Below, in pieces: positions 2,137 through 51,250 of a stretch of 64,000 nucleotides of DNA. Source of the stretch: Caballeronia ptereochthonis (lineage in GTDB: Bacteria > Pseudomonadota > Gammaproteobacteria > Burkholderiales > Burkholderiaceae); NCBI RefSeq assembly GCF_001545075.1, contig NZ_FCOB02000013.1:124001-188000 (forward strand). Direction: 5' to 3'. The stretch's first letter is position 1. Each line of letters opens with the position of its first letter. The notes beneath the pieces were generated by a model. The model saw nothing but the letters and a program-made list of their open reading frames with translations. It was not told where the DNA came from and ran no database searches. The position numbers and the translations under genes were made by a program.

Positions 2137-2188
2137 TCCGCACAGACGTCGAAGACGCGTTCGCAGCGCCCATCCAGGAGACAACTTC

Positions 2189-3851: not shown

Positions 3852-4061
3852 CGTCGCCCTGACGACGTCAGCAATCCGACCATCCCGCGCGCCCATCCCC
3901 GCCACATAAATCCCTCCCTTCATAAGCTCTTTCGAAACGCAATGCTTTGCATATGCGTATCGATTGGTTCTCTTGCGTGCGACACCGTTTTATCGTGAGC
4001 GACGCGGCAGCATGACGCCGCACCTCTCATTCGAACGACACCACACAAGGAACGGCATCAC

Positions 4062-5666: not shown

Positions 5667-5677
5667 GGACCCACGCG

Positions 5678-6658: not shown

Positions 6659-6677
6659 CTCTTCAATCCGATAACGC

Positions 6678-32962: not shown

Positions 32963-33008
32963 ATCGTAGACCTGACAAGCAATACATCCAATCAATTGTC
33001 GTGCATAC
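32963..33008 (-). promoter_or_regulatory. Promoter copy D of the four-copy 46-bp family
   Basis: On the minus strand: box GTATGCACGACAAT, three bases, -35 TTGGAT, exactly 17 bp, -10 TACGAT. The box differs from copies A and C at two positions. Reads toward the Old Yellow Enzyme gene. About 30 bp beyond the -10 also resemble the start of the tauE leader, suggesting descent from a duplicated promoter. Confidence 0.6.
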
Positions 33009-33192
33009 ACTTCGACATGCGTACGAGGGTGATGTATGCGTCACGAGAAGTGTGCCGCGTCGCGTACAACCGATGCGTACAAGGACGGCGAGCACACAGG
33101 TGAGCGTAGCAGCGGCGTCTTATGCCTCCGTAGACTTCGATCGGCGGGAAATCCACCGGTTGCTGGCGGATGCTCGCATTGGAAATAACTCT

Positions 33193-33238
33193 GTATCCAT
33201 GACAATAGTTTGATTGTCGTGATTGACCAGACTACGAT
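33193..33238 (+). promoter_or_regulatory. Promoter copy A of the four-copy 46-bp family (tauE promoter)
   Basis: Box GTATCCATGACAAT, three bases, -35 TTGATT, exactly 17 bp, -10 TACGAT. It ends 34 bp before the TauE start. GACAAT and ATTGTC form a short dyad across the -35 element. The box is identical to that of copy C. Confidence 0.7.
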
Positions 33239-33272
33239 GGCATCGCTCTTGGTCGATGAAGGGAATCGCAAC

Positions 33273-34030
33273 ATGGAACTGAACGCCACCACCATCCTCG
33301 TCACATTTGCGGGTGTCTTCCTCATCTGCTTCATGAAAGGTGCCTTCGGTGGTGGCTTTGCCATCGTTGGTATTCCGCTGCTGTCGCTTGTGATGGATCC
33401 GGTGACTGCGGGCGGCCTGCTTGCTCCGTTGTTTGTCGCTATGGATCTCTTCAGCCTTCGTTACTGGAAGCCGTCGACGTGGTCCAAGCCCGACCTCCTT
33501 GTGTTGGTGCCAGGGCTAGTAGTCGGCATTGGCGTCGGCTACCTGCTATTTAGGGTGCTGGATCATCGCGCGATCGCCATCGTGATGGCAGCAGTCACAC
33601 TGATTTTCGTCGGCTTGTGGTTCTCACGCGGTGGAGAGGTCGCGGTTCGGCCACGCTCGTCGGCCCGGGCTGTCACCGCTGGTATGACGTCCGGCGTTAC
33701 TACCATGGTTGCGCACTCTGGCGGACCGCCGCTGCGATGTATCTGCTGCCGCTCGGCCTCAGCAAGCAGGTCTACGCCGGTACGACCAGCCTGTTCTTCA
33801 CGGTAGGCAACATCATCAAGGCGGCACCTTGGTTGGCCTTGGCCAGGCCGGCGACCACCGTCTGGACGTTGATGGCGATCTGCCTGCTTGCCGTTCCGTC
33901 TGGCGTCTGGTTGGGCTGGCGCCTGCACGCCAGGTTGGGCCAGCGCCAGATGTACAGGGCCTGCTACGGCCTGCTCCTGGTCACGGCCATGAAGTTGCTG
34001 TGGGATGGAGCGTCCGGGTATCTGCGATGA
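33273..34030 (+). pseudogene. TauE/SafE-family transporter with a frameshift
   Basis: About 250 codons of a membrane permease of the sulfite exporter TauE/SafE family (MELNATTILVTFAGVFLICF, KGAFGGGFAIVGIPLLSL). The frame runs to VAHSGGPP near 33730, where one base appears to be missing. The rest (AAMYLLPLGLSKQVYAGTTSLFFTVGNIIKAAPW to the stop) continues in the next frame. As read, the protein loses its last three or four helices. The start at 33273 has a GAAGGGAA site and lies downstream of promoter copy A. Confidence 0.8.
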
Positions 34031-34224
34031 ATATCAGCAGCACGCATCGGTGAACGCATCGCGCGGGCATTCGGAAATGCGATATGTCGCCAATGCCGCA
34101 GTGCGTTTTGCGCGATGAGCCCAGGGAAGGCATGTTGCAGGGCGGCTTACCGGGGAAGCCGTCGGGAAGGCGGCAAAGTCGTCGTCCGATCCTGCCGGAC
34201 AGACTGCGCCCTCGCAAACCTGCG

Positions 34225-35556
34225 TCAGTAGGTATGTTCCGCAATAACGCGAGCCACTGCTTTCAGCGATTGTCGGAGCGTGGGCAGATCGACCGACCCA
34301 ATCGCCAGTCGAATGGCGTGAGGTACCTGAGTCGATGTAGCGAAGGGCAGGGCGGTCGAAACCGAGATGCGTTCGCGCATCAGCGCCATCGCGACAGCGT
34401 CGGCGCGAACTTCCTGCGCGAGAGGAATCCAGATGAAGTACGCGGCGGGATGGGTGATCGTCCTGAGCTTGCCGAGAGCTTCGGCAGCAAGACTTTGCCG
34501 CATCGTGGCGTCCCGCCGCTTCTCGTTTTCGAGCCGCACCACCGTGCCGTCGTTTATCCAGTTGCAGGCGATCGCCGTCATGGTCGCCGGTGTGTTCCAA
34601 GTCGTTGCCCGGATCGCCCGTTCAAACTTGGGAATCCATTCGCGTGGTGCGCAGACGAAACCTACGCGCAGACCCGTTGCGACACTCTTCGATAAGCTTG
34701 AGACATAGACCGTCGTTTCCGGAGCAATCGATGCTAACGGTGGCGGAGCATCTTCAGCGAGGTACGCGTAGGCCGCGTCCTCGATGAGGACCAGTCCATG
34801 TTGTCGAGCGATGCTGACAAGCTCGCGGCGCCGGCTGGCGCTCATTACCCAGCCGAGCGGGTTGTGCAGCGTAGGCATCGCGTATACGGCGCGTACGCGT
34901 CGTCGCTTGCACAGGGCCGTCAATGCGTCCAGATCGGGGCCACGCCCGGCGACCGGAATCGGCGCGAGTTCCAATCGATTGGCCTCGGCGGCCAGCTTGA
35001 ATCCCGGGTAGGTTAGTGCGTCCACGGCAACCACGTCGCCGGGTTCGAGCAGCGCCATGGCGGACGTCGTCAGTCCGTGCTGTGCCCCACTCACGAGCAA
35101 CGTCGTTGCGGCCGTCGCTGCCAGACCCCGGCTGGCTAGATGGCGTGCCGCCGTCTCGCGCTCGTGCTCTCGCCCGCCGTGCGGCTGGTATCGAAGCAGC
35201 GACTCCAGATCGCCGGCCGCCGAGAGCTGGCGCAGCGCTGAGCGGAAAAGGTCGGTCTGACCCGGCGCAGACGGAGAGTTAAAGCTCAGGTCAATCGTAA
35301 GTGAACTCCACGCATGCAAGTCAACCCCCTCACCACGGGGGAGAGGCTCCTTGACGAAGGTGCCACGCCCGATTTCGCCGCTAACCAGACCCATCGTGCG
35401 TAGCTCCGCATACACACGAGTTGCTGTCACGAGGGCGAGGCCCTCGCGAGCAGCCAGTTCGCGATGCGTAGGCAGACGCGTCCCGGGACGTAGGCGGCCG
35501 TCGCGAATGTCAGTTGCAAGGCGGTCAACGATTTGCTTGTAGCGGGCCTCAGGCAC
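34225..35556 (-). CDS. MocR-type regulator (GntR HTH fused to aminotransferase domain)
   Basis: 443-aa PLP-dependent transcription factor. Residues 1-70 form a GntR winged helix (IRDGRLRPGTRLPTHRELAAREGLALVTATRVYAEL). The rest is an aspartate-aminotransferase fold with N232 (TLHNPLG), D260 (LIEDAAYAY) and PLP Lys K290 (SSLSKSVATG), so cofactor binding looks intact. It starts with GTG only 9 bp from the box of promoter copy B, which faces the other way, an arrangement typical of MocR proteins that control a divergent gene and themselves. It is convergent with the broken tauE gene. Confidence 0.9.
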   Translation of the reverse strand: MPEARYKQIVDRLATDIRDGRLRPGTRLPTHRELAAREGLALVTATRVYAELRTMGLVSGEIGRGTFVKEPLPRGEGVDLHAWSSLTIDLSFNSPSAPGQTDLFRSALRQLSAAGDLESLLRYQPHGGREHERETAARHLASRGLAATAATTLLVSGAQHGLTTSAMALLEPGDVVAVDALTYPGFKLAAEANRLELAPIPVAGRGPDLDALTALCKRRRVRAVYAMPTLHNPLGWVMSASRRRELVSIARQHGLVLIEDAAYAYLAEDAPPPLASIAPETTVYVSSLSKSVATGLRVGFVCAPREWIPKFERAIRATTWNTPATMTAIACNWINDGTVVRLENEKRRDATMRQSLAAEALGKLRTITHPAAYFIWIPLAQEVRADAVAMALMRERISVSTALPFATSTQVPHAIRLAIGSVDLPTLRQSLKAVARVIAEHTY

Positions 35557-35564
35557 GGCTCAGT

Positions 35565-35610
35565 GTATCCACGACAATTATTTGATTGTATCGATTATCG
35601 ACCCTACCAT
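35565..35610 (+). promoter_or_regulatory. Promoter copy B of the four-copy 46-bp family, divergent from mocR
   Basis: Box GTATCCACGACAAT, three bases, -35 TTGATT, exactly 17 bp, -10 TACCAT, reading rightward. The gene it once drove seems lost: a 60-codon frame follows (from the GTG near 35641), matching no family. ACAAT and ATTGT form a dyad around the -35. It begins 9 bp from the MocR start codon, so MocR binding could serve both directions. Confidence 0.65.
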
Positions 35611-35785
35611 ACTGTCATACAAGCTCTCCGTGAGGACGCCGTGCGCATCGCCAAGTTGCGGTCGATGAACGGCGTGGTGCTGCAGGCGCAAGCATCGAGC
35701 ATCCCGAGCTTGCACGGACTCGACACGTCTCATTCGGCCGACGCCGCGCACATCGGCCGGGCGATGTCGATATGCACTGACACCG

Positions 35786-37072
35786 TTAGCGCAAGGTCTT
35801 GAACGCGGCTCTGATCTCTTCCGAGAACAACTGAGGCTGTTCCCATGCCGCGAAGTGACCTCCCTTATTTACTTCGTTGAAGTAGATGAGATCGTGATAG
35901 CTTCGTTCGGCCCAACTGCGCGGCGCCTGATAGATCTCGCCGGGGAAGACGGTGACGGCCGCGGGAATCGAAATGTCGACGGCGTTGAAGTTGTTCGCGT
36001 TGTTCGTCCAGTAGAGCTGAGCCGCCGACGTCGACGTGTTCGTCAGCCAGTACAGGGTGATGTCGTCGAGCATCTCGTCCTTCGTTAGCGCACGCTCGGG
36101 ATTGCCGCCGCTGTACGTCCAGTCTGAGAACTTATCGTACATCCATGCAGCTTGACCGACCGGCGAATCCGCGAGCGCATAGCCTATGGTTTGCGGACGC
36201 GTCACCATCATCGCAGCGTAACCGCCGCCGCGCGTGTAGAGGTTGTCGAGCGACTTATAGGCGGCGGTTTCCTTGGCGTCGAGTCCGGGTGGCGGCGGGT
36301 CGCCTGCCTTCAGGGACTTCGCGACTTCCGGCGGCACGGTCGCCGGCATGTTGACGTGAATGCCGATCAAGCCGGGCGGTTTCTGCGCGGCCATCTTGTC
36401 GGCGATGACCGAGCCCCAGTCACCGCCCTGCGCGACATAGCGCTGATAGCCCAGCCGATGCATCAGTTCATCCCATGCGCGCGCGATGTGATCCGGAGTC
36501 CAGTCGGCGGTTTTCGGTTTGCCGGAGAAGCCGTAGCCGGGCATCGAAGGCAGGACCAGATCGAACGAATCTTCGGCGCGCCCGCCATATGCGACGGGAT
36601 TCGTCAGCGGCCCGATGACCTTCAGTTCTTCGAAGACCGATCCGGGCCAGCCATGCGTCATGATGAGCGGCAGCGCATTCTGGTTCTTCGAACGAACCCA
36701 GATGAAATGAATATCGACGCCATCGATCGTGGTCACATACTGCGGCAACGCATTGAGCTGCGCCTCCGCGCGTCGCCAGTCATAGCCGTTGCCCCAATAC
36801 TTCACGAGCGCCTGCAACCTCGCTAGCTGCACGCCCTGCGAACGATCCGTGACCGATTCTGGATCCGGCCAGCGCGTCGCGGCGATGCGCTGGCGCAGAT
36901 CGGCGAGTTGGGTGTCCGAGAAGTGCGCCTTGAACGGGCGTATCGACACGTCATCGCCGGATATGGCGGACGGTAGGGAAGCGTCGGCGGCGCGCGCGGA
37001 CCCGGTCGCATAGGCGAACGGAGTCGCGACGAGTGCAGCACTGACGACGATGGACTTCAAGCCTTTCATCAT
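35786..37072 (-). CDS. Exported epoxide hydrolase (EHN-type alpha/beta hydrolase), Sec substrate
   Basis: 428-aa paralog of the Tat-type epoxide hydrolase, with a Sec signal peptide (MMKGLKSIVVSAALVATPFA, cleavage near ARAAD). EHN domain FKAHFSDTQLADLRQRIAATRWPD, oxyanion HGWPG (140-144), nucleophile D218 in QGGDWG and catalytic His 406 in GGHFAAWEQP. AGGA eight bases before the first ATG supports the start; a longer frame to 37162 reads through promoter sequence. Divergent from glxA-like gene across a 195-bp region with an element repeated at 50.9 kb. Confidence 0.9.
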   Translation of the reverse strand: MMKGLKSIVVSAALVATPFAYATGSARAADASLPSAISGDDVSIRPFKAHFSDTQLADLRQRIAATRWPDPESVTDRSQGVQLARLQALVKYWGNGYDWRRAEAQLNALPQYVTTIDGVDIHFIWVRSKNQNALPLIMTHGWPGSVFEELKVIGPLTNPVAYGGRAEDSFDLVLPSMPGYGFSGKPKTADWTPDHIARAWDELMHRLGYQRYVAQGGDWGSVIADKMAAQKPPGLIGIHVNMPATVPPEVAKSLKAGDPPPPGLDAKETAAYKSLDNLYTRGGGYAAMMVTRPQTIGYALADSPVGQAAWMYDKFSDWTYSGGNPERALTKDEMLDDITLYWLTNTSTSAAQLYWTNNANNFNAVDISIPAAVTVFPGEIYQAPRSWAERSYHDLIYFNEVNKGGHFAAWEQPQLFSEEIRAAFKTLR

Positions 37073-37186
37073 GACGTTTTCCTGACTTTGGACCAACCGA
37101 ACGAGAACTAGAATGGGAGCTGGAGGAGTCGATATGCTGCTTTGCGGCCGATGCGGCGTCAAAGATCAATCGCGTTCCATGCATCC

Positions 37187-37252
37187 ATAGCGTAGTTATA
37201 TGGCGTGCAGCCGATGTCGCAAAGGACGTAGAACCTACGCTTTCAGGACGTC
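37187..37252. promoter_or_regulatory. Divergent control region with repeated element E1
   Basis: The core at 37211-37252 is 39 of 42 bases identical to 50918-50959, and the block extends left to a shared GTTATA. On the minus strand both copies give TTGCGA, 16 bp, TATAAC, a plausible promoter for the hydrolase. Above the -35 lies a dyad CGTAG-AAC-CTACG, a probable operator for the GlxA-type regulator encoded 15 bp to the right. Confidence 0.6.
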
Positions 37253-37267
37253 AACCGAGGAGTCACC

Positions 37268-38212
37268 GTGCCGACAATCGCGTTCGTCGTGTTCGATGGA
37301 TTTCACGTGATGGCGCTGGCCGCGCAGCCCGTGTTTTCGTTCGCCAACCGGAAGTACGGTCAGCCGTTCTACGACACGCTCACGCTGTCGGAAAACGGCG
37401 CGCCGGTTCAACCGGTCGACGGCCCGGCCGTGATGACCGAGCCTTTTGGCAACCAAACGTTCGACACAGTGATCTTCGCCGGCGGCGATCCGACCGACGT
37501 GCCGTCGTCGCGGGGATTGCTTGAGTTCGTGCGCCATAGCGCGTCAACGGCCCGGCGTGTCGCGTCCATCTGCACGGGTGCGTTCGTGCTGGGCGAGGCG
37601 GGCTTGCTGGATGGCCGTCGGGTCACCACGCACTGGATCTATGCGCGCGCGTTGAGCAAGCGCTATCCCGAGGCGCGCGTCGAAGCGGACCGGATCTATG
37701 TCATCGATGGTCCGGTGTGGACATCGGCTGGAATGACGGCGGGAATCGACCTCGCGCTCGCGATGGTAGAAGCCGATCTCGGCACCGATCTCGCGCGAGC
37801 GGTGGCGCAAACGCTTGTCGTGTCTCACCGGCGCGCGGGTGGCCAGTCCCAGCATTCCGCGCTGCTCGAAATCGACGCCAAGTCGGATCGGATACAGTCC
37901 GCGCTGACATATGCGAAGAAGCATCTCGCGCAGTCGCTGTCGGTTGAACAGTTGGCCGAAGTCGCGCGTCTCAGTCCCCGCCAATTCAGCCGCGCGTTTC
38001 GTGCAGAAACGGGGCAGTCGCCCGCGAAAGCCGTCGAGCGATTGCGGCTGGAGGCGGCGCGGCTGATGCTGGAGCGAAGCCGCCATAGCGTCGAGCAGAT
38101 CGCGCAGCAGACGGGCTTTGCCGATTCCCGGCGCATGCGCGAAGCGTTCACGCGTGCGTTCGGACAGCCGCCTCAGGCGATTCGCAGAAACGGTCGCGCG
38201 GCGGTTGCGTGA
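37268..38212 (+). CDS. GlxA-family transcriptional regulator (DJ-1/PfpI domain plus AraC HTH)
   Basis: 314-aa regulator. Residues 1-190 form a DJ-1/PfpI-like domain with the nucleophile-elbow Cys C102 (ASICTGAFVLGEAGLLDGRRVTTHW). The C-terminal 100 residues carry two AraC-type HTHs (LSVEQLAEVARLSPRQFSRAFRAETGQSP and VEQIAQQTGFADSRRMREAFTRAFG). The GTG start has a GAGGAG site. Divergent from the Sec-type epoxide hydrolase gene, its most likely target. Confidence 0.9.
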   Translation: MPTIAFVVFDGFHVMALAAQPVFSFANRKYGQPFYDTLTLSENGAPVQPVDGPAVMTEPFGNQTFDTVIFAGGDPTDVPSSRGLLEFVRHSASTARRVASICTGAFVLGEAGLLDGRRVTTHWIYARALSKRYPEARVEADRIYVIDGPVWTSAGMTAGIDLALAMVEADLGTDLARAVAQTLVVSHRRAGGQSQHSALLEIDAKSDRIQSALTYAKKHLAQSLSVEQLAEVARLSPRQFSRAFRAETGQSPAKAVERLRLEAARLMLERSRHSVEQIAQQTGFADSRRMREAFTRAFGQPPQAIRRNGRAAVA

Positions 38213-38317
38213 AGGGTGGCCCTTACTGTCGAGCGAAAGCCGCATCGGGCAGTTCCATCGACGCAAGACGTACCTGTCTCCCGCAGTACAAAAATTCCGC
38301 GCGGCATTGCATGATGC

Positions 38318-38337
38318 GTTGTCCGCCGCAGGACAAC
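38318..38337. promoter_or_regulatory. Inverted repeat upstream of a LysR gene
   Basis: GTTGTCC and GGACAAC, seven perfect pairs around a 6-bp loop, 22 bp before the LysR start and 105 bp after the GlxA stop. No T-tract follows, so an operator is as likely as an attenuating hairpin. Confidence 0.35.
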
Positions 38338-38359
38338 GATAGATACGCACTGACGCCTC

Positions 38360-39271
38360 ATGGACCTGAACCTCATCCGCCTGTTCGTCGAGATCGTCGA
38401 ATCGCGCAGCCTGAGCGCCGCGGCGCGCAAGCTCGACATGACGCGCGCGAACATCAGCCAGCGGCTCAAGCTGCTGGAACGCGAAACCGATGCGCAACTA
38501 CTGCGACGCTCCACGCGCAGCCTCGAGCTGACGCAAGCCGGCCACACGCTCTACGACTGCGGCAAGCGCATGCTGGAAGATCTGTGCGCGGCGCGCGCGT
38601 CGATCGACAGTCTCGGGCAAACCCTGAGCGGCCGCGTGCGCATCAGCGTGCCGACGGGCTTCGGCCGAATGTTCATCGGATCGAAGCTGCTCGAATTCGC
38701 GCGCGCGCATCCGGGCATCACGCTCGATGTCACGTTCAATAATCGCATCGAGGATCTGATCGCGTCCGAAGTCGACGTCGCGCTGAGAATCACGCGCACG
38801 CCGCCGCTCGATTGCGTCGCGCGCGACATCTGTCTGATCGACTGGCGTCTCTACGCATCGCCGGATTACATGAAGGCGCATGGGCCCGTTCAATCGCCCG
38901 CCGACCTTCAGGGGCAGACGTTCGTCGCATCGCCGCATCCGGAGCGGCGCGTGACGATGACGCTCACGCACCGGCAGGACGAAAACGACGTTCACGAGAT
39001 CACGATTCAATCCGTGCTGCAGTCATCCGACTATCCGTTTCTCACCGAAGCCGTGGCTCAAGGTCTCGGCATCGGGCTCTTGCCGGCATATATCCAGTAC
39101 GCGCCCGCGAGTCAGGGATTCGTGCGCATCCTGCCGGAGTATCGCGTGCTGGGGCCACAAAACACGCTGTATATCGTGACGCTGCCGAATCGCTATCCTT
39201 CGGCGGCGACGCAGGCATTGATTGATTTTCTGCGAGCCGAAGTCATCGCCCTCTCGCAAACCTGGGCCTGA
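38360..39271 (+). CDS. LysR-family transcriptional regulator
   Basis: 303-aa regulator of the CrgA/DsdC-like LysR group: LNLIRLFVEIVESRSLSAAARKLDMTRANISQRLKLLERETDAQLLRRSTRSLELTQAG at the N-terminus, then an effector domain with GLGIGLLPAYI. It precedes the beta-oxidation operon in the same direction (115 bp gap) and is its likely local regulator, though it could act on the GlxA side too. Confidence 0.9.
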   Translation: MDLNLIRLFVEIVESRSLSAAARKLDMTRANISQRLKLLERETDAQLLRRSTRSLELTQAGHTLYDCGKRMLEDLCAARASIDSLGQTLSGRVRISVPTGFGRMFIGSKLLEFARAHPGITLDVTFNNRIEDLIASEVDVALRITRTPPLDCVARDICLIDWRLYASPDYMKAHGPVQSPADLQGQTFVASPHPERRVTMTLTHRQDENDVHEITIQSVLQSSDYPFLTEAVAQGLGIGLLPAYIQYAPASQGFVRILPEYRVLGPQNTLYIVTLPNRYPSAATQALIDFLRAEVIALSQTWA

Positions 39272-39385
39272 AAAGAAGCGCCATCGTCAAGTCTCAGTTA
39301 ACAGTGCGTTAATCGCCAGTTGGATTGTCAAGGCAATAGCGGCCTCCCACAATCGCCCTACACACATTACACGGAGACAAGGGCG

Positions 39386-41506
39386 ATGACCCCAGAAGCA
39401 TCCGCGGATGCCGTGAGGCAGGCAGTGCACGGCCGCGTTTTCGTTGTCACTGTCGACAATCCGCCCGTCAATGCGCTCGGCGCACAGGTGCGCTCCCAGT
39501 TGCGCGCAGCGATCGAAGCTGCCGATACCCATCCCGAAGTCGATGCCGTGCTGCTGCTCGGCGCGGGCCGCAATTTCATCGGCGGCGCGGATATCCGCGA
39601 GTTCGGCAAGCCGCCCGTGCCGCCATCGTTGCCCGAGGTCTGCAACTACATCGAAGCGAGCGCGAAGCCGGTGGTCGCCGCCATTCATGGCGTCGCGCTG
39701 GGTGGCGGCCTCGAAGTCGCGCTGGCGGCGCATTACCGGATCGCGTCGTCCGACGCGAAGCTCGGCCTGCCCGAAGTGACGCTCGGCTTGCTGCCGGGCG
39801 CGGGCGGCACGCAGCGCGCGCCGCGTCTCATCGGCGCGAAGGCAGCGCTCGATCTGATGCTGAGCGGCCGTCAGATCGGCGCCAAGGAAGCGCGCGCGCT
39901 CGGTCTCATCGACGAAATCGCCACAACGGACGACGCGCTCGCCGAAGGTCTCGCCTACACGCAAGGCCTGCTGGCCGCGCGTGCTCCGGCACGCCGCACA
40001 CGCGACGCGCAAGGACTCGCGGATCGCACGGCAAGCCGGACGGCTATCGAAGCGGCGCGCACTGAAGTATCGAAGAGCACGCGGCATCTCTTTTCGCCGA
40101 TGAAGATCGTCGATGCCGTTCAGGCCGCACTCGAAATGCCCTTTGACGATGGCCTGTGCCACGAACGTCAACTGTTTCTGCAATGTCTCGACAGCCCGCA
40201 GCGCGCGGGTCTGGTTCATGCGTTTTTTGCGGAGCGCGAGGCGCGCAAAGCGCCTGAAACGCGCAAGGCGAAGCCGCGCGCGATACGAAGCGTCGGCGTG
40301 ATCGGCGGCGGCACGATGGGCGCGGGCATCGCGGTGGCGCTGCTGGACGCGGGCCTACCGGTGGCGATGATCGAGCGCGACGATGCATCGCTGCTGCGCG
40401 GCGAAGCGCTCGTCGAAAAGGTCTACGACAGGCTCATCGCAGGGGGCCGCATGTCGCTGCAAGAGAAGGCCGATATCCTCGCGCGCCTGCATGGCAGCAC
40501 GTCGTATGACGCGCTCGATAAAGCCGATCTCGTGATCGAAGCGGTCTTCGAAGACATGGCCGTGAAGAAGGCCGTATTCGCCGAGCTCGACCGCGTGTGC
40601 AAGCCGGGTGCCGTACTCGCGACCAACACGTCGTATCTAGACATTGATGCGATCGCCGCGAGCATCTCGCGTCCCGCCGATGTCGTCGGCCTGCACTTCT
40701 TCTCTCCGGCGAACGTGATGAAGCTGCTGGAAGTCGTGGTGCCCGCACAGTCCAGCGCGGATGTGATCGCCACCGCGTTCGACCTCGCGAAGAAGCTGCG
40801 CAAGGTGCCGGTGCGCGCGGGCGTATGTGACGGCTTTATCGGCAATCGCGTGCTCGCGATCTATCGCGCGGCAGCGGATCACATGATGGAAGACGGCGCG
40901 TCGCCGTATCAGATCGATCGCGCGGTGCGCGACTTCGGTTTCCCGATGGGACCGTTTCAAGTGTCCGACCTCGCGGGCGGCGATATCGGCTGGGCGACGC
41001 GCAAGCGCCGCGCCGCGACACGCGATCCGAAGCTGCGTTACGTGCAGATCGCCGACCGCATCTGCGAGCGTGGCTGGTTCGGGCAGAAGACGGGACGCGG
41101 CTTCTATCTCTATACCGATGGCGGGCGCACCGGCAAACCCGATCCCGAAGTCGAAGCGATCATCGATGCGGAACGCAAACGCGCCGAGATCACGCCGCGC
41201 ACCTTCACCGACGACGAAATCATGCGCCGCTACATGGCCGCGATGATCAACGAAGCCGCGAACGTCGTGCATGAAGGCATCGCGCTGCGTCCGCTTGATG
41301 TCGACGTCACGTTCGTTCATGGCTACGGCTTTCCGCGTCATCGCGGCGGCCCGATGAAGTACGCCGATACCGTCGGCCTCGCCAGCGTGCTCGCCGATAT
41401 CCGCGAGTTCGCGCAAGAAGATCCGCTCTTCTGGAAGCCGTCGACGCTCATCGTCGATCTGGTCGAACGCGGCGCCACGCTCGCGAGCCTCAATCAATCC
41501 GCCTGA
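39386..41506 (+). CDS. Bifunctional enoyl-CoA hydratase/3-hydroxyacyl-CoA dehydrogenase (FadJ/PimF-like)
   Basis: 706-aa two-activity beta-oxidation enzyme. The crotonase part (1-190) has oxyanion GGADIREF, and catalytic Glu at E110 (GGGLEVAL) and E130 ([18 protein letters not shown]). The dehydrogenase part begins with the NAD fingerprint [18 protein letters not shown] near 305 and continues with [16 protein letters not shown] and DGFIGNRVL. The final domain has [16 protein letters not shown]. The ATG at 39386 follows GAGACAAGGG. First gene of a seven-gene operon. Confidence 0.92.
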
Positions 41507-41520
41507 CGCAGGAGTAACTC

Positions 41521-42702: not shown

Positions 42703-42714
42703 GAGAAGCGATTC

Positions 42715-43923: not shown

Positions 43924-43933
43924 AGGCACGACG

Positions 43934-45058
43934 ATGAATTTCCAGCACACAGAAGACCGCCGCATGCTGGCGGATTCGCTGAACCGCTTCGTCGCCGAGC
44001 GGTACGACTTCAAGACACGCGAGGCGGGTTTCAGCGCCGACATGTGGCGGCGCTTCGCCGAACTGGGCGTGATCGGCGCGCTCTTCGATGAGGCCGATGG
44101 CGGCTTTGGCGGCGATGGCTTCGATATCGCCGTCGTGTTCGAAAGCCTCGGGCGCGGCCTCGTTGTCGAGCCGTTTCTCGGCGCGCTCGTCGTCGGCCAT
44201 GCATTGACTCACGCCGGCAACGACGCGCAGAAGGCGCTCGTCGCGTGCCTGATCGACGGACGCTCCGTCGCCGCCATTGCGCATGAAGAATGCGATTTGC
44301 ACTATGAATTGACGAATGTTTCGACACGCGCCGTGCGCAGTTCGAACGGCTGGGTACTGACGGGCGCGAAAGCGGTCGTGCAGCAGGGCGAGCACGCGGA
44401 TTTCTTCCTCGTCTCGGCGCGCACGAGCGGCGCGCATGACGCTGAAGACGGCATTTCGCTCTTCATCGTCGCGCGTGATGCGGCGGGTGTCGACGTGCGC
44501 GGCTATCCGAAGATCGATGGCGGGCGTGCCGCCGAGCTGCGTCTGAACGAAGTCCGCGTCGACGATCACGCGCTCGTCGGCGAACGCGATGCGGGTTTCG
44601 CGACGCTCGAACGTGCGATCGGCGCGGGCGTGCTCGCGCTCTGCGCGGAAGCGCTCGGCGCGATGGATGTCGCGAAAGAACACACGCTGGAGTATCTGCG
44701 CACGCGCAAGCAGTTCGGCGTCGCGATCGGGACGTTCCAGGCGTTGCAGCACCGCATGGCCGACATGCTGCTCGAAATCGAGCAGGCGCGCTCGGCGGTC
44801 ATCAACGCGGCCGCTCTTTTGGGCGCGGAGCGCATCGAGCGCGAGCGCGCGCTGTCGGCGGCGAAGTACTCGATCGGGCGCATCGGCGCGCTGGTCGCCG
44901 AAGAGAGCATCCAGATGCACGGCGGCATTGGCATGACGTGGGAACTGCCGCTCGCGCATTACGCCAAGCGCCTTGTGATGGTCGACCATCAACTCGGCGA
45001 CGAAGATCACCATCTCCAACGCTATATCGCATTGACCCGGAGCCAACGTCATGAATGA
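43934..45058 (+). CDS. Acyl-CoA dehydrogenase (PimD-like small subunit)
   Basis: 374-aa dehydrogenase-fold protein. MNFQHTEDRRMLADSLNRFV, GGFGGDGFDIAVVFESLGRGLVVEPFL and the C-terminal HGGIGMTWELPLAHYAKRL place it in the small-subunit group. The substrate-loop SEP motif of the large subunit is replaced (HEECDLHYELTN), usual for this partner. Starts 10 bp after the large subunit, and its last 8 bases overlap the next gene. Confidence 0.87.
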   Translation: MNFQHTEDRRMLADSLNRFVAERYDFKTREAGFSADMWRRFAELGVIGALFDEADGGFGGDGFDIAVVFESLGRGLVVEPFLGALVVGHALTHAGNDAQKALVACLIDGRSVAAIAHEECDLHYELTNVSTRAVRSSNGWVLTGAKAVVQQGEHADFFLVSARTSGAHDAEDGISLFIVARDAAGVDVRGYPKIDGGRAAELRLNEVRVDDHALVGERDAGFATLERAIGAGVLALCAEALGAMDVAKEHTLEYLRTRKQFGVAIGTFQALQHRMADMLLEIEQARSAVINAAALLGAERIERERALSAAKYSIGRIGALVAEESIQMHGGIGMTWELPLAHYAKRLVMVDHQLGDEDHHLQRYIALTRSQRHE

Positions 45059-45863
45059 AGCCATCCTTTCGCGCCGCGAGGGCGCGGTGCAAGTGCTGTC
45101 GATGAACAATCCCTCCGCGCGCAATGCACTCACCGCGGAAACGTACACGGCGCTGCCGGCCGCGCTCGCAAAGGCAGAGCGCGATCCTGACGTCGGCGCA
45201 ATCGTGTTGACGGGCGCAGGCGGCGTGTTCTGCGCGGGCGGCGATCTGAACCGTCTCGCGCAACGCCGCGCGATGACGCCGACGGACCGGCGCGCCGGCG
45301 TCGAAGTCTTGCACACGATGATTCGCGCGATCCGCGATTGCAGCAAGCCGGTGATCGCGGCGGTCGAAGGCGCGGCGGCAGGCGCGGGGCTGTCGATTGC
45401 GCTCGCGTGCGATCTGCTCGTTGCCGCACGCAATGCGTCGTTCTCGGTCGCCTATGTAAAGGTTGGACTTTCGCCCGATGCCGGCGCGACCGCGTTTCTC
45501 TCCGGCTGCGTCTCGCGTCAATTGCTGACCGAGTTGTGTCTGCTGGGCAAGCCCGTGACGGGGGAACGCATGCATGCGCTCGGCGTCGCGAATCGGCTCA
45601 CGGAACCCGAAGGCGCGCTCGCGGAAGCCATCGCGATGGCGCAACTGCTCGCGGCCGGTCCGGAGCGCGCGATTGCCCGCATCAAGAGCTTGTGCCGCCA
45701 TGCGGGCGAGAACACGCTCGACGCGCAACTCGATCTCGAAGCGGATTACATGACCGAATCGCTCGGCGACGACGAGTCCGCCGAAGGCATCGGCGCGTTC
45801 TTCGGCAAGCGTCCCGCCGATTACGCCGCGTTGCGCCGCGGCGCGGCCGTGCAGTCTTCATAA
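45051..45863 (+). CDS. Enoyl-CoA hydratase/isomerase family protein (PaaG-like active site)
   Basis: 270-aa crotonase-fold enzyme. The oxyanion segment FCAGGDLNRLA and GAAAGAGLSIALACDL are clear. The first catalytic Glu position is Ser (GAGLS) and the second is Asp in LSPDAGATAFL, the pattern of PaaG-type isomerases rather than hydratases. An isomerase role for unsaturated or ring-derived acyl-CoA is therefore more likely than hydration, which the bifunctional enzyme supplies. Start overlaps the previous gene by 8 bp. Confidence 0.85.
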   Translation: MNEAILSRREGAVQVLSMNNPSARNALTAETYTALPAALAKAERDPDVGAIVLTGAGGVFCAGGDLNRLAQRRAMTPTDRRAGVEVLHTMIRAIRDCSKPVIAAVEGAAAGAGLSIALACDLLVAARNASFSVAYVKVGLSPDAGATAFLSGCVSRQLLTELCLLGKPVTGERMHALGVANRLTEPEGALAEAIAMAQLLAAGPERAIARIKSLCRHAGENTLDAQLDLEADYMTESLGDDESAEGIGAFFGKRPADYAALRRGAAVQSS

Positions 45864-45874
45864 ACGGATCTGTC

Positions 45875-47086
45875 ATGTCGAATCCGGTTTCCTCACTGCC
45901 GCTCGCCGGCGTTCGCATTCTCGATCTGTCTCGCGTGCTCGCGGGTCCGTGGTGCGCGATGGTGCTCGGCGATCTCGGCGCCGAAGTCATCAAGGTCGAG
46001 CACCCGAAGCGCGGCGACGACACGCGCGACTGGGGCATTCGCGTCGGCGCGACCGAGACGACGTATTTCAACAGCGTCAACCGCAACAAGCGCTCGGTGT
46101 GTCTCGATCTACAAAGCGCCGAAGGACAGCGCATCGCACGCGAGCTCGCGGCACAGTGTGATGTCGTGATCCAGAACTTCAAATACGGCGGCGCGGAAAA
46201 GCTCGGCCTGGGCTACGCACAACTCGCCGAAGGCCGCGAGGATCTCATCTATTGCTCGATCTCTGGCTACGACCGCCACGGACCGGAAGCCGCGCGTCCC
46301 GGCTACGACATCGTCGTGCAGGGCGAGGCGGGACTGATGGCGATGAATGGCACCGCCGATCAACCGCCGCTCAAGTTCGGCGTCGCGGCCGTCGATCTGT
46401 TCACCGGCATGTATTCCGCGCAAGCCGTGCTGGCCGCGCTCTTCGAGCGTCAGAAGACCGGCAGGGGGCGTCACATTGAAATGGCACTCTTCGATTGCGG
46501 CCTGATGATCACGTCGTACTACGGGCTCGAGTCGATGTTGCTAGAGGATGATCCGCCGCGCTACGGCAACGCGCATCCGTCGATCGTGCCTTACGGCGTG
46601 TTCGACGCGGTCGATGGACCGGTCGTCATCGCGGTAGGAACGAATCGCCAGTACGAGCGCTTTTGCCGCGAAGTGATCGAGCGTCCCGAGCTTTTCGATG
46701 ACGAGCGATATTGCACGAATCTCGTCCGTGCCGCGAATCGCGACGTGCTCGTGCCCGCACTCACGCGTGCGATCGGCTCGCTGAATCGCGCGGTGTTGCT
46801 GGAGCGGCTCACGGGCGCAGGCATTCCGTGCGGCGAAGTGCTCGGTCTTCACGACGCGCTCACATCGCAGCGCGCGAAGGAAGCCGGGCTTCTGACGACG
46901 GTTCCGCATCCTGAAGCGGGCAGCACGCACGTGCTCGCGCCGCCCTGGCGATTCGACGGTGCGCGCCTGCCCGTGCGCAGCGCGCCGCCACCCCTCGGCG
47001 AAGGCACGAGCGACGTGCTTCGTTCGCTGCTCGGCCTGTCTGACGAAGACGTTTCACGACTGAAGGCGCAGGAGATCACATCATGA
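45875..47086 (+). CDS. CaiB/BaiF type III CoA-transferase
   Basis: 403-aa cytoplasmic transferase that moves CoA between carboxylic acids. LPLAGVRILDLSRVLAGPWCAMVLGDLGAEVIKVEHPKRGDDTRDW is the family start, and SVNRNKRSVCLDLQ, SGYDRHGPEAARPGYD with GLMAMNG are also diagnostic. The operon contains no acyl-CoA ligase, so this enzyme is the likely activation step. The ATG at 45875 sits 11 bp after the previous stop. Its stop overlaps the next start. Confidence 0.9.
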   Translation: MSNPVSSLPLAGVRILDLSRVLAGPWCAMVLGDLGAEVIKVEHPKRGDDTRDWGIRVGATETTYFNSVNRNKRSVCLDLQSAEGQRIARELAAQCDVVIQNFKYGGAEKLGLGYAQLAEGREDLIYCSISGYDRHGPEAARPGYDIVVQGEAGLMAMNGTADQPPLKFGVAAVDLFTGMYSAQAVLAALFERQKTGRGRHIEMALFDCGLMITSYYGLESMLLEDDPPRYGNAHPSIVPYGVFDAVDGPVVIAVGTNRQYERFCREVIERPELFDDERYCTNLVRAANRDVLVPALTRAIGSLNRAVLLERLTGAGIPCGEVLGLHDALTSQRAKEAGLLTTVPHPEAGSTHVLAPPWRFDGARLPVRSAPPPLGEGTSDVLRSLLGLSDEDVSRLKAQEITS

Positions 47087-48069
47087 GTCAGCGCTTCTTT
47101 GCCAATGCCGTCACGGAACTATTCGGCACGCGTCTGCCGATCGTCGCGGGCGGGTTGATGTGGCTCGCGGACGCGGAGTATGTCGCGGCTGCATCGCGTG
47201 CGGGCATCATTGGCTTCATCACGGCAGCGAGCTTTCCTGAGCCGCAAGCATTGCGCGCGGAAATCAGGCGCTGCCGCGAGTTGTGCGCGGGCGGCCCTTT
47301 CGGCGTCAACGTGTCGATGCTGCCGAAGCTCGTGCCGGGCGAGAAGACGCGCGAAGTGTTCGAACTGATCGTCGATGAAGGCGTGAAGTTCGTCGAAACC
47401 TCCGGACGCAATCCCGAGGAATTCATACCACTTCTGAAGAGCGCGGGTATCAAGGTGCTGCACAAGGTTCCGTCGGTGCGCTACGCAGTAAAGGCGGCGT
47501 CGGTTGGCGTCGATGCGGTCGCGATCGTCGGCGCTGAATGCGGCGGGCATCCGGGACTCGACATGGTCGGCTCGTTCGTCAACGCGGCGTGGGCCGAAAG
47601 CCAGCTCGACATTCCGTATCTAATCGGCGGCGGCATCGGACGCGGCTCGCAACTCGCCGCCGCGCTCGCGATGGGCGCATCCGGCGTCGTGGTCGGCACG
47701 CGCTTCGTCGTCGCCGAAGAGATCTGGGCGCATGACGATTACAAGCGTCGCCTCGTCGAAGCCGGACCGACCGACACTGATCTGTGCATGGAGTCCGTAC
47801 GCAACACCGTGCGCACGCTGCGCAACGAAACCTCGGCTGCGGTGAAGGACTTCGAGGCGCGCAACGACAACGTCACCATTCAGGATCTGATGCCGATGGT
47901 GTCGGGCAAGATCGGCCGCGAAGCCTATATCACCGGAGACTGGCGCAAGGGTCTGCTCGCGGCAGGGCAGTCGCTCGCGTTCACGGACCGCATCGAACCG
48001 CTCGCGGATATCGTGCATCGCTTCGAGAGCGACATGATGCACGCGATGAAACGCGTGGCGATCAGCTAA
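47083..48069 (+). CDS. Nitronate monooxygenase-family FMN oxidoreductase
   Basis: 328-aa TIM-barrel flavoprotein of the 2-nitropropane dioxygenase/FabK-like group: PIVAGGLMWLADAEYVAAASRAG, GVNVSMLPKL, HKVPSVRYAVKAASVGVDAVAIVGAECGGHPG and GGGIGRGSQLAAALAMGASGVVVGTRF. The AECGGH motif includes the His usual in nitronate monooxygenases. In this operon it could serve as an enoyl-CoA reductase rather than act on nitronates. ATGA overlap with the CoA-transferase gene. Confidence 0.85.
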   Translation: MSQRFFANAVTELFGTRLPIVAGGLMWLADAEYVAAASRAGIIGFITAASFPEPQALRAEIRRCRELCAGGPFGVNVSMLPKLVPGEKTREVFELIVDEGVKFVETSGRNPEEFIPLLKSAGIKVLHKVPSVRYAVKAASVGVDAVAIVGAECGGHPGLDMVGSFVNAAWAESQLDIPYLIGGGIGRGSQLAAALAMGASGVVVGTRFVVAEEIWAHDDYKRRLVEAGPTDTDLCMESVRNTVRTLRNETSAAVKDFEARNDNVTIQDLMPMVSGKIGREAYITGDWRKGLLAAGQSLAFTDRIEPLADIVHRFESDMMHAMKRVAIS

Positions 48070-48088
48070 TCAATGCAAGGAGAGTGCA

Positions 48089-48387
48089 GTGAAGGTATTG
48101 GTCCCTGTCAAGCGCGGCTCTGGGCGCATCGCGCGCGGCAGTCGATGCGGGCTACGTGCCGAACGATTACCACCAGGTCGGTCAGACGGGCAAGATCGTC
48201 GCGCCGCAGCTGTATGTGGCGGTCGGCATCTCGTGCGCGATTCAGCACCTCGCGGGTATGAAGGAATCGAAAGCGATCGTCGGGATCAGCAAGGACTCCG
48301 GAAGCGCCGATCTTCAGCGTGGTCGATTACGGCCTCGTCGGCGATCCGTTCGCAGTTTTACCGGAGTTGATCGACGGACTGAACTGA
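48089..48387 (+). pseudogene. Collapsed etfB-etfA remnant
   Basis: A well-placed AAGGAG and GTG start give MKVLVPVKR, the universal start of EtfB, but after nine codons the sequence jumps to the last quarter of Etf[59 protein letters not shown]. One extra base near 48296 shifts the frame again, and the EtfA end ([27 protein letters not shown]) finishes at 48387. About 1.6 kb of etfBA has been lost. The operon's dehydrogenases must use electron-transfer flavoprotein made elsewhere. Confidence 0.85.
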
Positions 48388-48438
48388 CAGCGGCCCGCGT
48401 CAAAGCGACGTCATTCAAAAAATGAAGGAGACAGCATC

Positions 48439-48756
48439 ATGCAGCAAGTTCATATCGACCGAACGGCGGCGAGTCCCGCTTACCGGCGGCTCGTCGCGCA
48501 ACGACGCCGCTTCAGCTTGACGCTGACCGCGTTGATGGTCCTCACCTATTACGGCTTCGTCCTCTTCGTCGCGCTGGCGCCGCATCTCCTGGCGCGTCCG
48601 CTCTATGCTGGCGCGACGATGACGATCGGAGTCGTCGCGGGCGTGGCCATCATCCTCATCGCGCTCGGCATGACCGCATGCTACGTGCTGCGCGCGAACC
48701 GAACATTCGACCCTTCGATGAACGCGCTGCTCGCCAGCGTCCAGCAAGGAGGCTGA
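48439..48756 (+). CDS. DUF485 small membrane protein (YjcH-like)
   Basis: 105-aa inner-membrane protein with two transmembrane helices (LTLTALMVLTYYGFVLFVALAPHLL and a second ending IILIALGMTACYVL). The N-terminal SPAYRRLVAQRRRFS is a DUF485 signature. It precedes actP by 3 bp, as yjcH precedes actP in E. coli. Confidence 0.9.
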   Translation: MQQVHIDRTAASPAYRRLVAQRRRFSLTLTALMVLTYYGFVLFVALAPHLLARPLYAGATMTIGVVAGVAIILIALGMTACYVLRANRTFDPSMNALLASVQQGG

Positions 48757-48759
48757 GCG

Positions 48760-50442
48760 ATGAACCGTCTTCACATCATTCTCGCAGGCCTCGTCTCGAT
48801 GCCCGCGCTCGCCAACGCGTCGTCCATCGAAGGGCCGGTGCCCGATCACGTTGAACTGAATCCGATCGCGGTCGCCACGTTCCTGCTGTTCGTGCTGGTT
48901 ACCCTGGGCATCACGCGCTGGGCATCGCGCAGAACGCGCACGACGAAGGACTTTTACAGCGCGGGCGGCGATCTCACCGGCTTCCAGAACGGGCTCGCCA
49001 TCGCGGGCGACTATATGTCCGCGGCTTCGTTTCTCGGTCTGTCTGGCATGGTCTTCGTGTTCGGCTTCGATGGCCTCATCTATTCGATCGGCTTTCTCGT
49101 CGGCTGGCCGTTCGTGATGTTCCTGCTCGCCGAACCCTTGCGCAATCTCGGCAAATTCACATTCGTCGATGTCGTCGCGTACCGCTTCGAACAAGCACCG
49201 ATTCGCCTTCTGACCGCGAGCACGTCCCTTGTCGTCGTGATCTTCTATCTGGTCGTGCAGATGGTCGGCGCGGGCAAGCTGATCCAGTTGTTGTTCGGCT
49301 TGCCTTACGGGATGGCCGAAGTGATCGTCGGCGCGCTGATGGTCGTGTACGTGTTCTTCGGTGGCATGACCGCGACGACCTGGGTGCAGATCATCAAGGC
49401 TGTTCTGCTATTGTGCGGCGCGACCTTCATGGCCGTCACCGCGCTCGCTCAATTCGGCTTCAGCCTCGACGAGATGTTCCGCCGCGCGGTCGACGTTCAT
49501 CCCGGCGCGCTCAGCATCATGGCGCCCGGCAAGCTGCTCTCCGATCCGCTCAACGCGCTTTCGCTCGGCATCGCATTGATGTTCGGCACCGCGGGCTTTC
49601 CGCATATCCTGATGCGCTTCTTCACGGTGCCGAGCGCAAAGGAAGCGCGCAAATCGGTGTTCGTGGCGACGAGCTTTATCGGCTATTTCTATCTGCTGAC
49701 GTTCGTGATCGGTTTCTCCGCGATTGCCTTGCTCGCGCAGCACCCGGAGTTCTTCAAGACCGCGGCCGACGGCCACTTCAACCTCACGCACGATCTGCTC
49801 GGCGGCTCGAACATGGTTGCCGTCAGGCTCGCGCAGGCGCTGGGCGGCAATCTGTTCTACGGCTTCATCGCGGCCGTGACCTTCGCGACGATCCTCGCGG
49901 TCGTGGCGGGCCTCACGCTGTCCGGCGCGACCACGGTGTCGCACGATCTCTACGCATGCTGGCTCTCGCGCGGGAAGGGCGACGATGCAAGCGAGATGCG
50001 CGTATCACGGATCGCGACCGTGGTCCTCAGCATCGTCGCGATGGGGCTGGGCGTCGCGTTCGAACACGTCAACGTCGCGTTCCTCGTCGGTCTGGTCGCG
50101 GCGGTGGCGGCGAGCGCGAACTTCCCGATTCTGGTGTCGTCGATTTTCTGGCGCGGCATGACGACGCGCGGTGCCGTCGTAGGCGGGAGTCTCGGGCTGA
50201 TCAGCGCCGTGCTGCTGACGCTGTTCTCGAAAGCCGTTTGGGTCGATGTGCTGCATCAGGCGCACGCGCTCGTATCGCTCGACAATCCGGCGCTGGTTTC
50301 GGTGCCGCTTGCCTTCGCGGGAATCTGGGCTTTTTCGATGCTGGATCGCGGTGCGCGTGCGCACCGGGAGCGTGACGCCTTCGCGATGCAGGAATTCCAT
50401 GGCCAGACGGGTGTATTGCCCGTAAAGGCGGCCGATCACTGA
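48760..50442 (+). CDS. actP: Cation/acetate symporter of the SSS family
   Basis: 560-aa sodium:solute symporter with about 13 helices and an N-terminal signal-like helix. TTKDFYSAGGDLTGFQNGLAIAGDYMSAASFLGLSG, FVDVVAYRFEQAPIRLLTA and FGTAGFPHILMRFFTVPSAKEARKS match ActP over its length. It probably imports short-chain carboxylates. Position after a beta-oxidation operon fits, but no acetyl-CoA synthetase lies beside it. Confidence 0.9.
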   Translation: MNRLHIILAGLVSMPALANASSIEGPVPDHVELNPIAVATFLLFVLVTLGITRWASRRTRTTKDFYSAGGDLTGFQNGLAIAGDYMSAASFLGLSGMVFVFGFDGLIYSIGFLVGWPFVMFLLAEPLRNLGKFTFVDVVAYRFEQAPIRLLTASTSLVVVIFYLVVQMVGAGKLIQLLFGLPYGMAEVIVGALMVVYVFFGGMTATTWVQIIKAVLLLCGATFMAVTALAQFGFSLDEMFRRAVDVHPGALSIMAPGKLLSDPLNALSLGIALMFGTAGFPHILMRFFTVPSAKEARKSVFVATSFIGYFYLLTFVIGFSAIALLAQHPEFFKTAADGHFNLTHDLLGGSNMVAVRLAQALGGNLFYGFIAAVTFATILAVVAGLTLSGATTVSHDLYACWLSRGKGDDASEMRVSRIATVVLSIVAMGLGVAFEHVNVAFLVGLVAAVAASANFPILVSSIFWRGMTTRGAVVGGSLGLISAVLLTLFSKAVWVDVLHQAHALVSLDNPALVSVPLAFAGIWAFSMLDRGARAHRERDAFAMQEFHGQTGVLPVKAADH

Positions 50443-50456
50443 GCTAGTCGATGCAA

Positions 50457-50846
50457 TCAGTAGCTGGCGACCTCGATGACCGCTTCCGCGAAAGCCTCAG
50501 GTGCTTCTTGCGGAAGGTTCTGGCCGACGCCGCCAGTGATAGTGCGATGGGTGTACCTGCCGACGAATTTCTTTGCATAAGATGCGGGCTCGGGATGCGG
50601 CGCACCGTTCGCATCGCCTTCGAGCGTGATGGTCGGCACGGCGATGACGGGCGCCGCTGCAAGACGCATTTCCAGCGCGTCGTATTCCGCCTCTCCGTGA
50701 GAAATGCCGAGGCGCCAGCGATGCCACACTGCTCGCGGTTGCGGCTATGTCGGACGACACGCATGCGCGCGACCGGTTAGAAGCATATTCATCGCGGCGA
50801 CGCTGGCCGCGGCGCTTGCCATGAAGCGTCGACGACGCCCGTTCAT
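50457..50846 (-). pseudogene. Exported alpha/beta hydrolase, internally deleted remnant
   Basis: The minus strand from ATG at 50844-50846 encodes an Arg-rich Tat-like leader (NGRRRRFMASAAASVAAMNM, ending GRAHA) and soon stops. The last 70 or so residues of an alpha/beta hydrolase follow in another frame: AAPVIAVPTITLEGDANGAPHPEP, FVGRYTHRTITGGVGQNLPQEAPEAFAEAVIEVA. The catalytic core is gone. The promoter upstream (50.9 kb) is the twin of the epoxide hydrolase promoter at 37.2 kb. Confidence 0.7.
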
Positions 50847-50847
50847 T

Positions 50848-51168
50848 TCATTCGGTACCGGAGTCTCTCCTGTACGCCACGCAATCGGAATTCACAGCGC
50901 CGTTATACGACTCGTCTCCGATATCGCAAAGGACGTAGAACTTACGCTTTCGGGACGTCGACTTTGCGCAACGCTGCAACCGCAGACGCGATGTGCCTCG
51001 CCGCTCGCGGAGATGCGACGTCGGCATGATGACTTCTCTGCCAGGCCAACGAGGAAGCTCGCAAGACGATGGGACGTCGGGTTCGGATGTCGCGAAGTGA
51101 TGTGCCAGAACGGCATACACGCAGATCAAAACCCATAGCGTGCCGAACGCGATCAGAAAGTGATTCAT
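50848..51168 (-). CDS. Hypothetical protein with one N-terminal membrane helix, possibly a remnant
   Basis: 106-aa frame beginning MNHFLIAFGTLWVLICVYAVLAHH, one hydrophobic helix, then an Arg/Ser-rich tail that runs across element E2. AGGAG five bases before the ATG and promoter copy C 37 bp upstream make the start convincing. The tail, which overlaps a regulatory element, looks like read-through after a deletion. No family recognised. Confidence 0.4.
   Translation of the reverse strand: MNHFLIAFGTLWVLICVYAVLAHHFATSEPDVPSSCELPRWPGREVIMPTSHLRERRGTSRLRLQRCAKSTSRKRKFYVLCDIGDESYNGAVNSDCVAYRRDSGTE
50894..50959. promoter_or_regulatory. Repeated control element E2, twin of E1
   Basis: 50918-50959 differs from 37211-37252 at only three of 42 positions, and the shared GTTATA lies at the same distance to the left. 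On the minus strand TTGCGA, 16 bp, TATAAC points at the decayed hydrolase gene. The dyad is slightly degraded (CTTACG instead of CTACG context). Confidence 0.6.
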
Positions 51169-51204
51169 GTGGGCTCCTGTCACTTATGCGGCGGTGTCGA
51201 GGAT

Positions 51205-51250
51205 ATGCTAGGCCTGAAGTCAATTACATTCAAATGATTGTCATGGATAC
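51205..51250 (-). promoter_or_regulatory. Promoter copy C of the four-copy 46-bp family
   Basis: On the minus strand: box GTATCCATGACAAT (identical to copy A), three bases, -35 TTGAAT, exactly 17 bp, -10 TAGCAT. It is 18 kb from the other copies and points at the small membrane-helix gene 37 bp away. Confidence 0.65.

Follow-up and report, generated by a model that had tools for sequence, protein, structure and literature searches.

The 64,000-nucleotide stretch of the Caballeronia ptereochthonis genome analysed here (contig NZ_FCOB02000013.1, positions 124,001 to 188,000; hereafter the window) carries four copies of a 46-bp element that had been noticed in a first-pass annotation. Judging from sequence comparison, we consider it about 90% probable that these four sites are operators of the MocR-type regulator encoded at 34225..35556 of the same window, each lying inside a sigma-70-type promoter and standing before genes that are mostly broken. 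They are probably also operators of a 70%-identical paralogue of this MocR on another contig (C61) of the same genome.

A direct reading of the sequence showed that the four sites are present as first described, with coordinates, spacings and hexamers all in agreement. Operator-promoter 1 (35565..35610, plus strand) lies beside mocR, points at a DJ-1/PfpI gene stub and reads GTATCCACGACAAT-TAT-TTGATT-17-TACCAT. Operator-promoter 2 (33193..33238, plus strand; GTATCCATGACAAT-AGT-TTGATT-17-TACGAT) is found ahead of a broken TauE/SafE gene, and operator-promoter 3 (51205..51250, minus strand; GTATCCATGACAAT-CAT-TTGAAT-17-TAGCAT when read from 51250 to 51205) ahead of a gene for a small membrane protein. 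Operator-promoter 4 (32963..33008, minus strand; GTATGCACGACAAT-TGA-TTGGAT-17-TACGAT from 33008 to 32963) is the weakest copy and is divergent from site 2. The likeness of the leading 14-bp boxes was also confirmed, two of them being identical and the fourth showing one further difference. Compared with the consensus, three of the window sites have 0 or 1 mismatch and the weakest has 5.

The 14-mer alone, at up to three mismatches, occurs 10 times in the window against 4.68 expected, and 4 of 100 shuffles reach 10. Because this is barely above chance, the whole 46-bp layout was put to the test. We used a position weight matrix (PWM) built from 94 sites of named genomes outside the genus, from which three of the four TauE loci and every locus with Caballeronia or C. 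turbans in its title had been excluded (the fourth TauE locus, L098, was included). It gave 70.4 bits at 35565, 54.6 at 33193, 52.5 at 51205 and 33.5 at 32963; nothing else in the window scored above -16.8, and the maximum over 200 dinucleotide shuffles was -13.6 bits. A sequence-only covariance model of 53 sites, including one Caballeronia and four TauE loci, likewise recovered the four sites alone from the window (E 9e-15 to 1e-7). Applied to the 7.7-Mb genome at E<=10, the same model returned five matches, namely the four window sites (E 1.5e-5 for the weakest in this search) and one on contig C61 by the second MocR, and a pattern search of the host genome also gave five sites, with zero in the reversed-pattern control. 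Five matches in a whole genome indicate that the motif is no dispersed repeat.

Comparison of the sites shows a predicted operator in the form of an imperfect dyad, ATCCATGACAAT-N6-ATTGTnnTGnnT, arranged around ACAAT-N6-ATTGT, with the -35 hexamer within its right half. The 14-bp box and the -35 hexamer, which had been taken as separate elements, would accordingly both be parts of one palindromic operator, and the conserved block indeed runs on through the "-35" to about 32 bp. Across 53 aligned sites the inner five dyad pairs are complementary in 262 of 265 cells, although the bases are largely fixed there by the search pattern. The right arm has seven outer columns that were free to vary; in three of them most sites pair with the left arm (48, 41 and 32 of 53), and in the other four most do not (18, 15, 7 and 9). 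Pairing over 12 pairs reaches 68% of cells in these sites, compared with 44% at the next separate centre, and a site from Buttiauxella pairs at every position of a 12+12 dyad. In diverged mocR copies both outer arms have changed together: the dyad reads GTAGGACAAT-N6-ATTGTCCTAC in genome G057, and the variant at the second mocR copy of G014 is near the G057 form, one mismatch short of symmetry. That the outer arms changed jointly at these MocR copies, which are about 51% identical, argues that the palindrome is genuine. This sister dyad, of the TAGGACAAT-N6-ATTGTCCTA type, occupies the same place at both of these copies (L238, G057:C4:252300-257000, 1502-1547; L239, G014:C249:4500-9000, 1917-1962).

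The right arm includes the -35 hexamer TTGATT and is followed by a -10-like hexamer, which starts at column 40 in 113 of 142 sites and at column 41 in 20 and was not found in 9. In the window, the hexamers of the four sites match the sigma-70 consensus at 8, 8, 8 and 7 of 12 bases. If transcription is assumed to start 7 bp past the -10 hexamer, the dyad centre falls near -35.5.

The mocR gene (34225..35556, minus strand) is intact and encodes a protein of 443 residues, with a GntR winged helix-turn-helix at the N-terminus (PF00392, 47 bits against a cut-off of 27) and a fold-type-I aminotransferase domain at the C-terminus (PF00155, 125 bits against 19.7). K290, within SLSK, is the predicted lysine for pyridoxal phosphate (PLP) and has a frequency of 1.0 among 114 unique homologues; in the same proteins, the mean top frequency is 0.848 in the winged helix versus 0.749 elsewhere. 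A PDB sequence search at E<=1e-10 returned 25 sequences, nearly all named aminotransferases or aminotransferase-like, and 7pq9 was the only match from residue 2 onward, spanning the DNA-binding part. By BLAST extrapolation, the start codon of mocR lies 9 bp from site 1. The second MocR of the host, on contig C61, is 70% identical; the site beside it is perfect, and the accompanying DJ-1 gene is intact. At this locus (L186, G000:C61:184000-192000, 2090-7429) the second MocR gene is divergent from the DJ-1/PfpI gene, after which come genes for a GntR/UTRA regulator and for methylthioribose kinase and isomerase. Caballeronia sp. INDeC2 (G009; L028 / L139) has its MocR in two pieces in different frames and has kept the operator and the DJ-1 gene.

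We then consider how widely the site occurs together with MocR. An exact pattern scan of genome contigs found at least 119 stretches with the site, which, placed from their titles, we take to belong to Beta- or Gammaproteobacteria (Pseudomonas, Burkholderiales and relatives, and some Enterobacterales). The survey set comprised 155 site instances at 153 loci; where loci overlap, or a genome occurs in both collections, the count is double. In 135 of the 155 instances the distance between the site and the start of a divergent mocR is 3-30 bp, with 9 bp in 62 and 8 bp in 29 (BLAST extrapolation). On the side away from MocR, these 135 sites are flanked by EamA in 82 cases, DJ-1/PfpI in 47, TauE in one and cyanase in one, with MocR only in the remaining 4. 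The 20 sites without an adjacent MocR, two of which (L101 and L107) are cut at the locus end where MocR is not visible, comprise 6 in front of the small membrane gene, 6 in front of DJ-1, 5 in front of TauE, 2 readings of the site on the side of the Old Yellow Enzyme (OYE) gene and 1 with none of these genes. For EamA, DJ-1, TauE and the small membrane gene the start lies at a median of 57-61 bp from the site, and a distance of 45-70 bp was seen in 65 of 82 EamA and 51 of 53 DJ-1 cases. Pfam confirmed one example each of EamA, DJ-1_PfpI, TauE and cyanate lyase. Cyanase homologues in L125 and L052 are on the far side of mocR and not behind the site, and were therefore not counted; at the Collimonas locus L142 (4146-4586), cyanase lies behind the operator and is followed by DJ-1/PfpI.

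Since this locus survey starts from the motif, a separate protein-first MocR test (E<=1e-90) was performed. Among 101 relatives, a site with at most two mismatches was present in all 30 MocR-bearing genomes versus 2 of the 71 others (Fisher 1e-23, relatedness ignored). Counted by gene, 30 of 33 MocR matches had a site at this threshold alongside, and at the remaining three mocR genes (G023, 80% identical, and the second copies of G057 and G014, 51%) a variant dyad lies immediately upstream; in G023 an exact site is present elsewhere in the genome, before DJ-1. Of 399 genomes of the order, 6 have both MocR and site, 1 has MocR only, 1 the site only and 391 neither (Fisher 9e-12, relatedness again ignored). 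Order genome G192, whose MocR is 53% identical, has no site within two mismatches; a short way upstream of its mocR lies a site with 4 mismatches that retains the whole ACAAT-N6-ATTGT core.

The comparison of genomes thus shows that this MocR clade and the predicted operator go together in both Beta- and Gammaproteobacteria, and the adjacency in 135 of 155 instances, the 30 of 30 relatives and the 6 of 7 order genomes support the earlier proposal of a MocR binding site and regulon. The regulator cannot be called local, however, as that proposal had it, given the recurrence of the operator in both classes and the second MocR with its own site in the host genome. The genes behind the putative operator form, by the same comparison, a small changing set: an EamA exporter, DJ-1/PfpI or TauE beside mocR and, away from it, TauE/SafE, the small membrane protein or another DJ-1, with cyanase seen once.

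Several observations weigh against our reading. Two relatives, G010 (2 mismatches) and G034 (1 mismatch), have a site without MocR, and so has order genome G102, where the site is poor at -3.2 bits. Conversely, the MocR of Cupriavidus sp. U2 (L137) is without a good site of its own, the site lying 1.5 kb off, before TauE. A promoter scan at a 9/12 cut-off over the range 32600-36000, with the 51-kb site outside it, reported no promoter. Most sites were found by pattern, and the conserved columns of the logo are in large part fixed by this selection; for the loci that they add, the protein-first MocR scans, the site-blind search for the small membrane gene and the variant-dyad analysis are free of such bias. 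To these points we add the result at the OYE loci, described below.

Turning to the genes behind the window sites, the copy described as adjoining mocR is indeed adjacent to it, with the correction that the site points away from mocR, at a deleted DJ-1/PfpI gene. The stub (35641..35697, plus strand) consists of the first codons, an internal deletion and a short internal stretch; in alignments with the DJ-1 loci L029, L087 and L124, 35561-35653 and 35657-35697 fall on two distinct parts of the locus, and L030 and L169 match less. The TauE/SafE-family gene (33273..34030, plus strand) is split by a frameshift near 33734, and the two parts, which lie in different frames, have 88% and 86% identity to a Cupriavidus necator protein. 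Its assignment as a target is supported by the recurrence of the site 49-62 bp ahead of TauE in four named loci, from C. necator (L057), Delftia (L098, where the locus end cuts TauE to its first 22 residues), Bordetella pseudohinzii (L107) and Cupriavidus sp. U2 (L137). Ten loci with a 56-63% identical TauE are without the site; they carry no information on this point, since MocR gave no match in any of the genomes concerned. In C. necator, pieces of a MocR gene that run in opposite orientations occur near the TauE operator (L057:3237-3633).

The small membrane-protein gene (50848..51168, minus strand) encodes an N-terminal helix and a basic C-terminus, the latter unlike that of its relatives. 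Five other Caballeronia genomes have homologues, in every case behind the site, and a site-blind protein search found the gene in 4 of 61 genomes, all four with the site, consistent with the target role first ascribed to it. The L183 homologue has a weak resemblance to FixQ (E 0.018), and the window copy gave no Pfam match. L183:3921-4184 and its homologues in L177, L180, L182 and L184 encode an undescribed membrane protein of about 88 residues that, in the samples searched, occurs only in Caballeronia, behind the operator. Near the small membrane gene, L177, L180, L184 and the window have ActP-like symporter genes or fragments of them.

Site 4 lies about 380 bp ahead of a broken NemA-like OYE gene (31508..32581, minus strand), which is interrupted by one in-frame stop between the pieces 32261-32581 and 31508-32260. 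We examined the best 15 of 44 OYE matches (one being the window itself) together with 11 loci from a DNA search, covering 22 genomes. No site was found at the homologous OYE locus in any of these 22 relatives, of which only 7 have MocR; the best PWM scores were -29.5 to -53.4 at 14 loci and -27.8 to -53.4 at the 11 DNA-search loci. The inclusion of OYE in the regulon is therefore not supported. The stretch between OYE and site 4 gave no DNA match in 100 relatives beyond about 32566, and the true target of site 4 is uncertain.

With its targets deleted, frameshifted, stop-interrupted or altered, the window appears to hold a regulon whose operators outlast the genes. This state of the genes is found alongside an intact mocR and three operators within one mismatch of the consensus, and it offers an example of a strain in which regulator and operators outlast their targets. 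The sites could then be relics, that is, former MocR operators with no useful control left since the targets broke, a possibility that is compatible with the MocR-operator reading and to which we give somewhat less than an even chance. The DJ-1 stub, the TauE frameshift, the in-frame stop of OYE and the altered C-terminus of the small membrane protein all speak for it, as do the 5 mismatches of the weakest site. The integrity of mocR and of the other three sites speaks against it, and so does the intact MocR/DJ-1 pair with its perfect site on contig C61.

As to mechanism, a MocR dimer would bind the operator head to head, and the most likely effect is repression of mocR as well as of the targets. 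Release from the operator would follow the binding of a primary-amine ligand as an external aldimine with the PLP of K290, as described for EnuR. Our preference for repression comes from the position of the operator, over the -35 hexamer and near the mocR start, again as for EnuR. GabR, by comparison, is an activator of its target and a repressor of its own gene. That the present MocR behaves like GabR, activating its targets while repressing mocR, rather than repressing both, is in our view less likely than not. The hexamers retain only 7-8 of the 12 consensus bases, the promoter scan calls none, and the left half-site is just upstream of -35, the usual place for an activator. Moreover, MocR-type activators are known, TauR being one (PMC5320631). 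On the other hand, the dyad is centred near -35.5 and overlaps the -35 hexamer; among named regulators the closest relative is EnuR, a repressor whose operators overlap the promoter core elements (PMC8739950).

It is very unlikely that the motif belongs to another regulator or to a sigma factor and merely tends to lie near mocR. The 20 of 155 instances without a MocR start beside the site, two of them cut by the locus end, would fit this explanation; it accords poorly with the presence of MocR in 30 of 32 site-bearing relatives, with the near-fixed distance between site and mocR start, and with the diverged MocR copies, which keep changed yet symmetrical dyads in the same place. A dispersed repeat or chance resemblance, suggested by the poor showing of the 14-mer at three mismatches, was rejected on the PWM scores against shuffles and on the whole-genome model search, with just five matches in 7.7 Mb, zero reversed-pattern matches in host, relative and order genomes, and a repeat search that pairs three copies in 32000-37500 over 47-58 bp only.

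Beyond the assignment of the four sites to MocR, we tentatively put forward a broader idea that we ourselves regard as rather unlikely. The widely kept MocR-operator pair might act as a fixed switch beneath which exporters and detoxifying enzymes are exchanged (EamA, DJ-1/PfpI, TauE/SafE, cyanase and, in Caballeronia, the faintly FixQ-like protein of about 88 residues), all answering one and the same ligand, a reactive amine or a cyano-type compound, which MocR would sense by way of PLP; diverged MocR copies would have re-drawn both arms of the dyad together. Since regulator and operator stay while targets change, the system is a convenient case in which to look for the ligand and for the signal shared by EamA, DJ-1/PfpI, TauE and cyanase. 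For a MocR clade that spans Pseudomonas, Enterobacterales and Burkholderiales, and that is without a function in the literature searched, the analysis supplies an operator that can be tested, a list of targets and a regulon on the scale of the whole genome. Separately, the window contains two epoxide hydrolase-like genes (23823-25097 and 35786-37162) that are 52% identical and about 11 kb apart.

Among known systems, the window MocR is most similar to EnuR/EhuR (EutR), the repressor of ectoine catabolism, which is its best NCBIfam match at 384.4 bits, below the cut-off of 480 for NF052286 (the Cupriavidus sp. U2 homologue scores 373.8). It also falls below the NCBIfam cut-offs of PdxR, YczR, GabR, PtsJ and rhizopine MocR. 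With GabR of Bacillus subtilis it has the MocR architecture in common, although its NCBIfam GabR score is 61 against a cut-off of 600, and the divergent arrangement of regulator and target seen at the window mocR is that of GabR. According to PMC8739950, the consensus EnuR operator, taken from Suvorova and Rodionov, consists of two 5-bp arms 6 bp apart, ATTGTnnnnnnACAAT, and EnuR operators overlap a sigma-70 promoter with 17-bp spacing. The half-site of the window operator is alike, but its arms are in the opposite order, ACAATnnnnnnATTGT, and it has conserved outer arms. EnuR controls genes of ectoine uptake and catabolism; directly behind the sites described here are EamA, DJ-1/PfpI, TauE, cyanase or the small membrane gene (ectoine genes elsewhere in the genomes were not searched for).

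MpaR, the cyanide-responsive regulator of Pseudomonas aeruginosa, is likewise a PLP-type MocR acting at a few promoters with a shared palindrome; it differs in the palindrome itself (ATCTGAT), in its position 61-62 bp upstream of the start and in its targets (PMC10790758). Cyanide sensing as in MpaR was considered for the present system; the motif differs, which leaves the single cyanase locus (L142) as the sole point in favour. A literature search for the letters of the motif gave matches only in four P450 papers, and no title or abstract listed dealt with this operator. A parallel in kind is the set of MocR regulogs in RegPrecise of Suvorova and Rodionov (2016; PMC5320631), which comprises 86 orthologous groups with inverted two-box motifs in 20% of regulons, and in which DMT-superfamily and RhaT-family transporters belong to several regulons, including groups of unknown function. 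DJ-1, PfpI, ThiJ and EamA are absent from the main text of that paper, and the present motif is not printed in its Results text, figure 1 and tables aside. The present MocR group may well be among the published regulogs, as YdcR or another group. Those regulogs are the same kind of object as the one described here, and a MocR beside its operator with a few targets is an already known kind of system.

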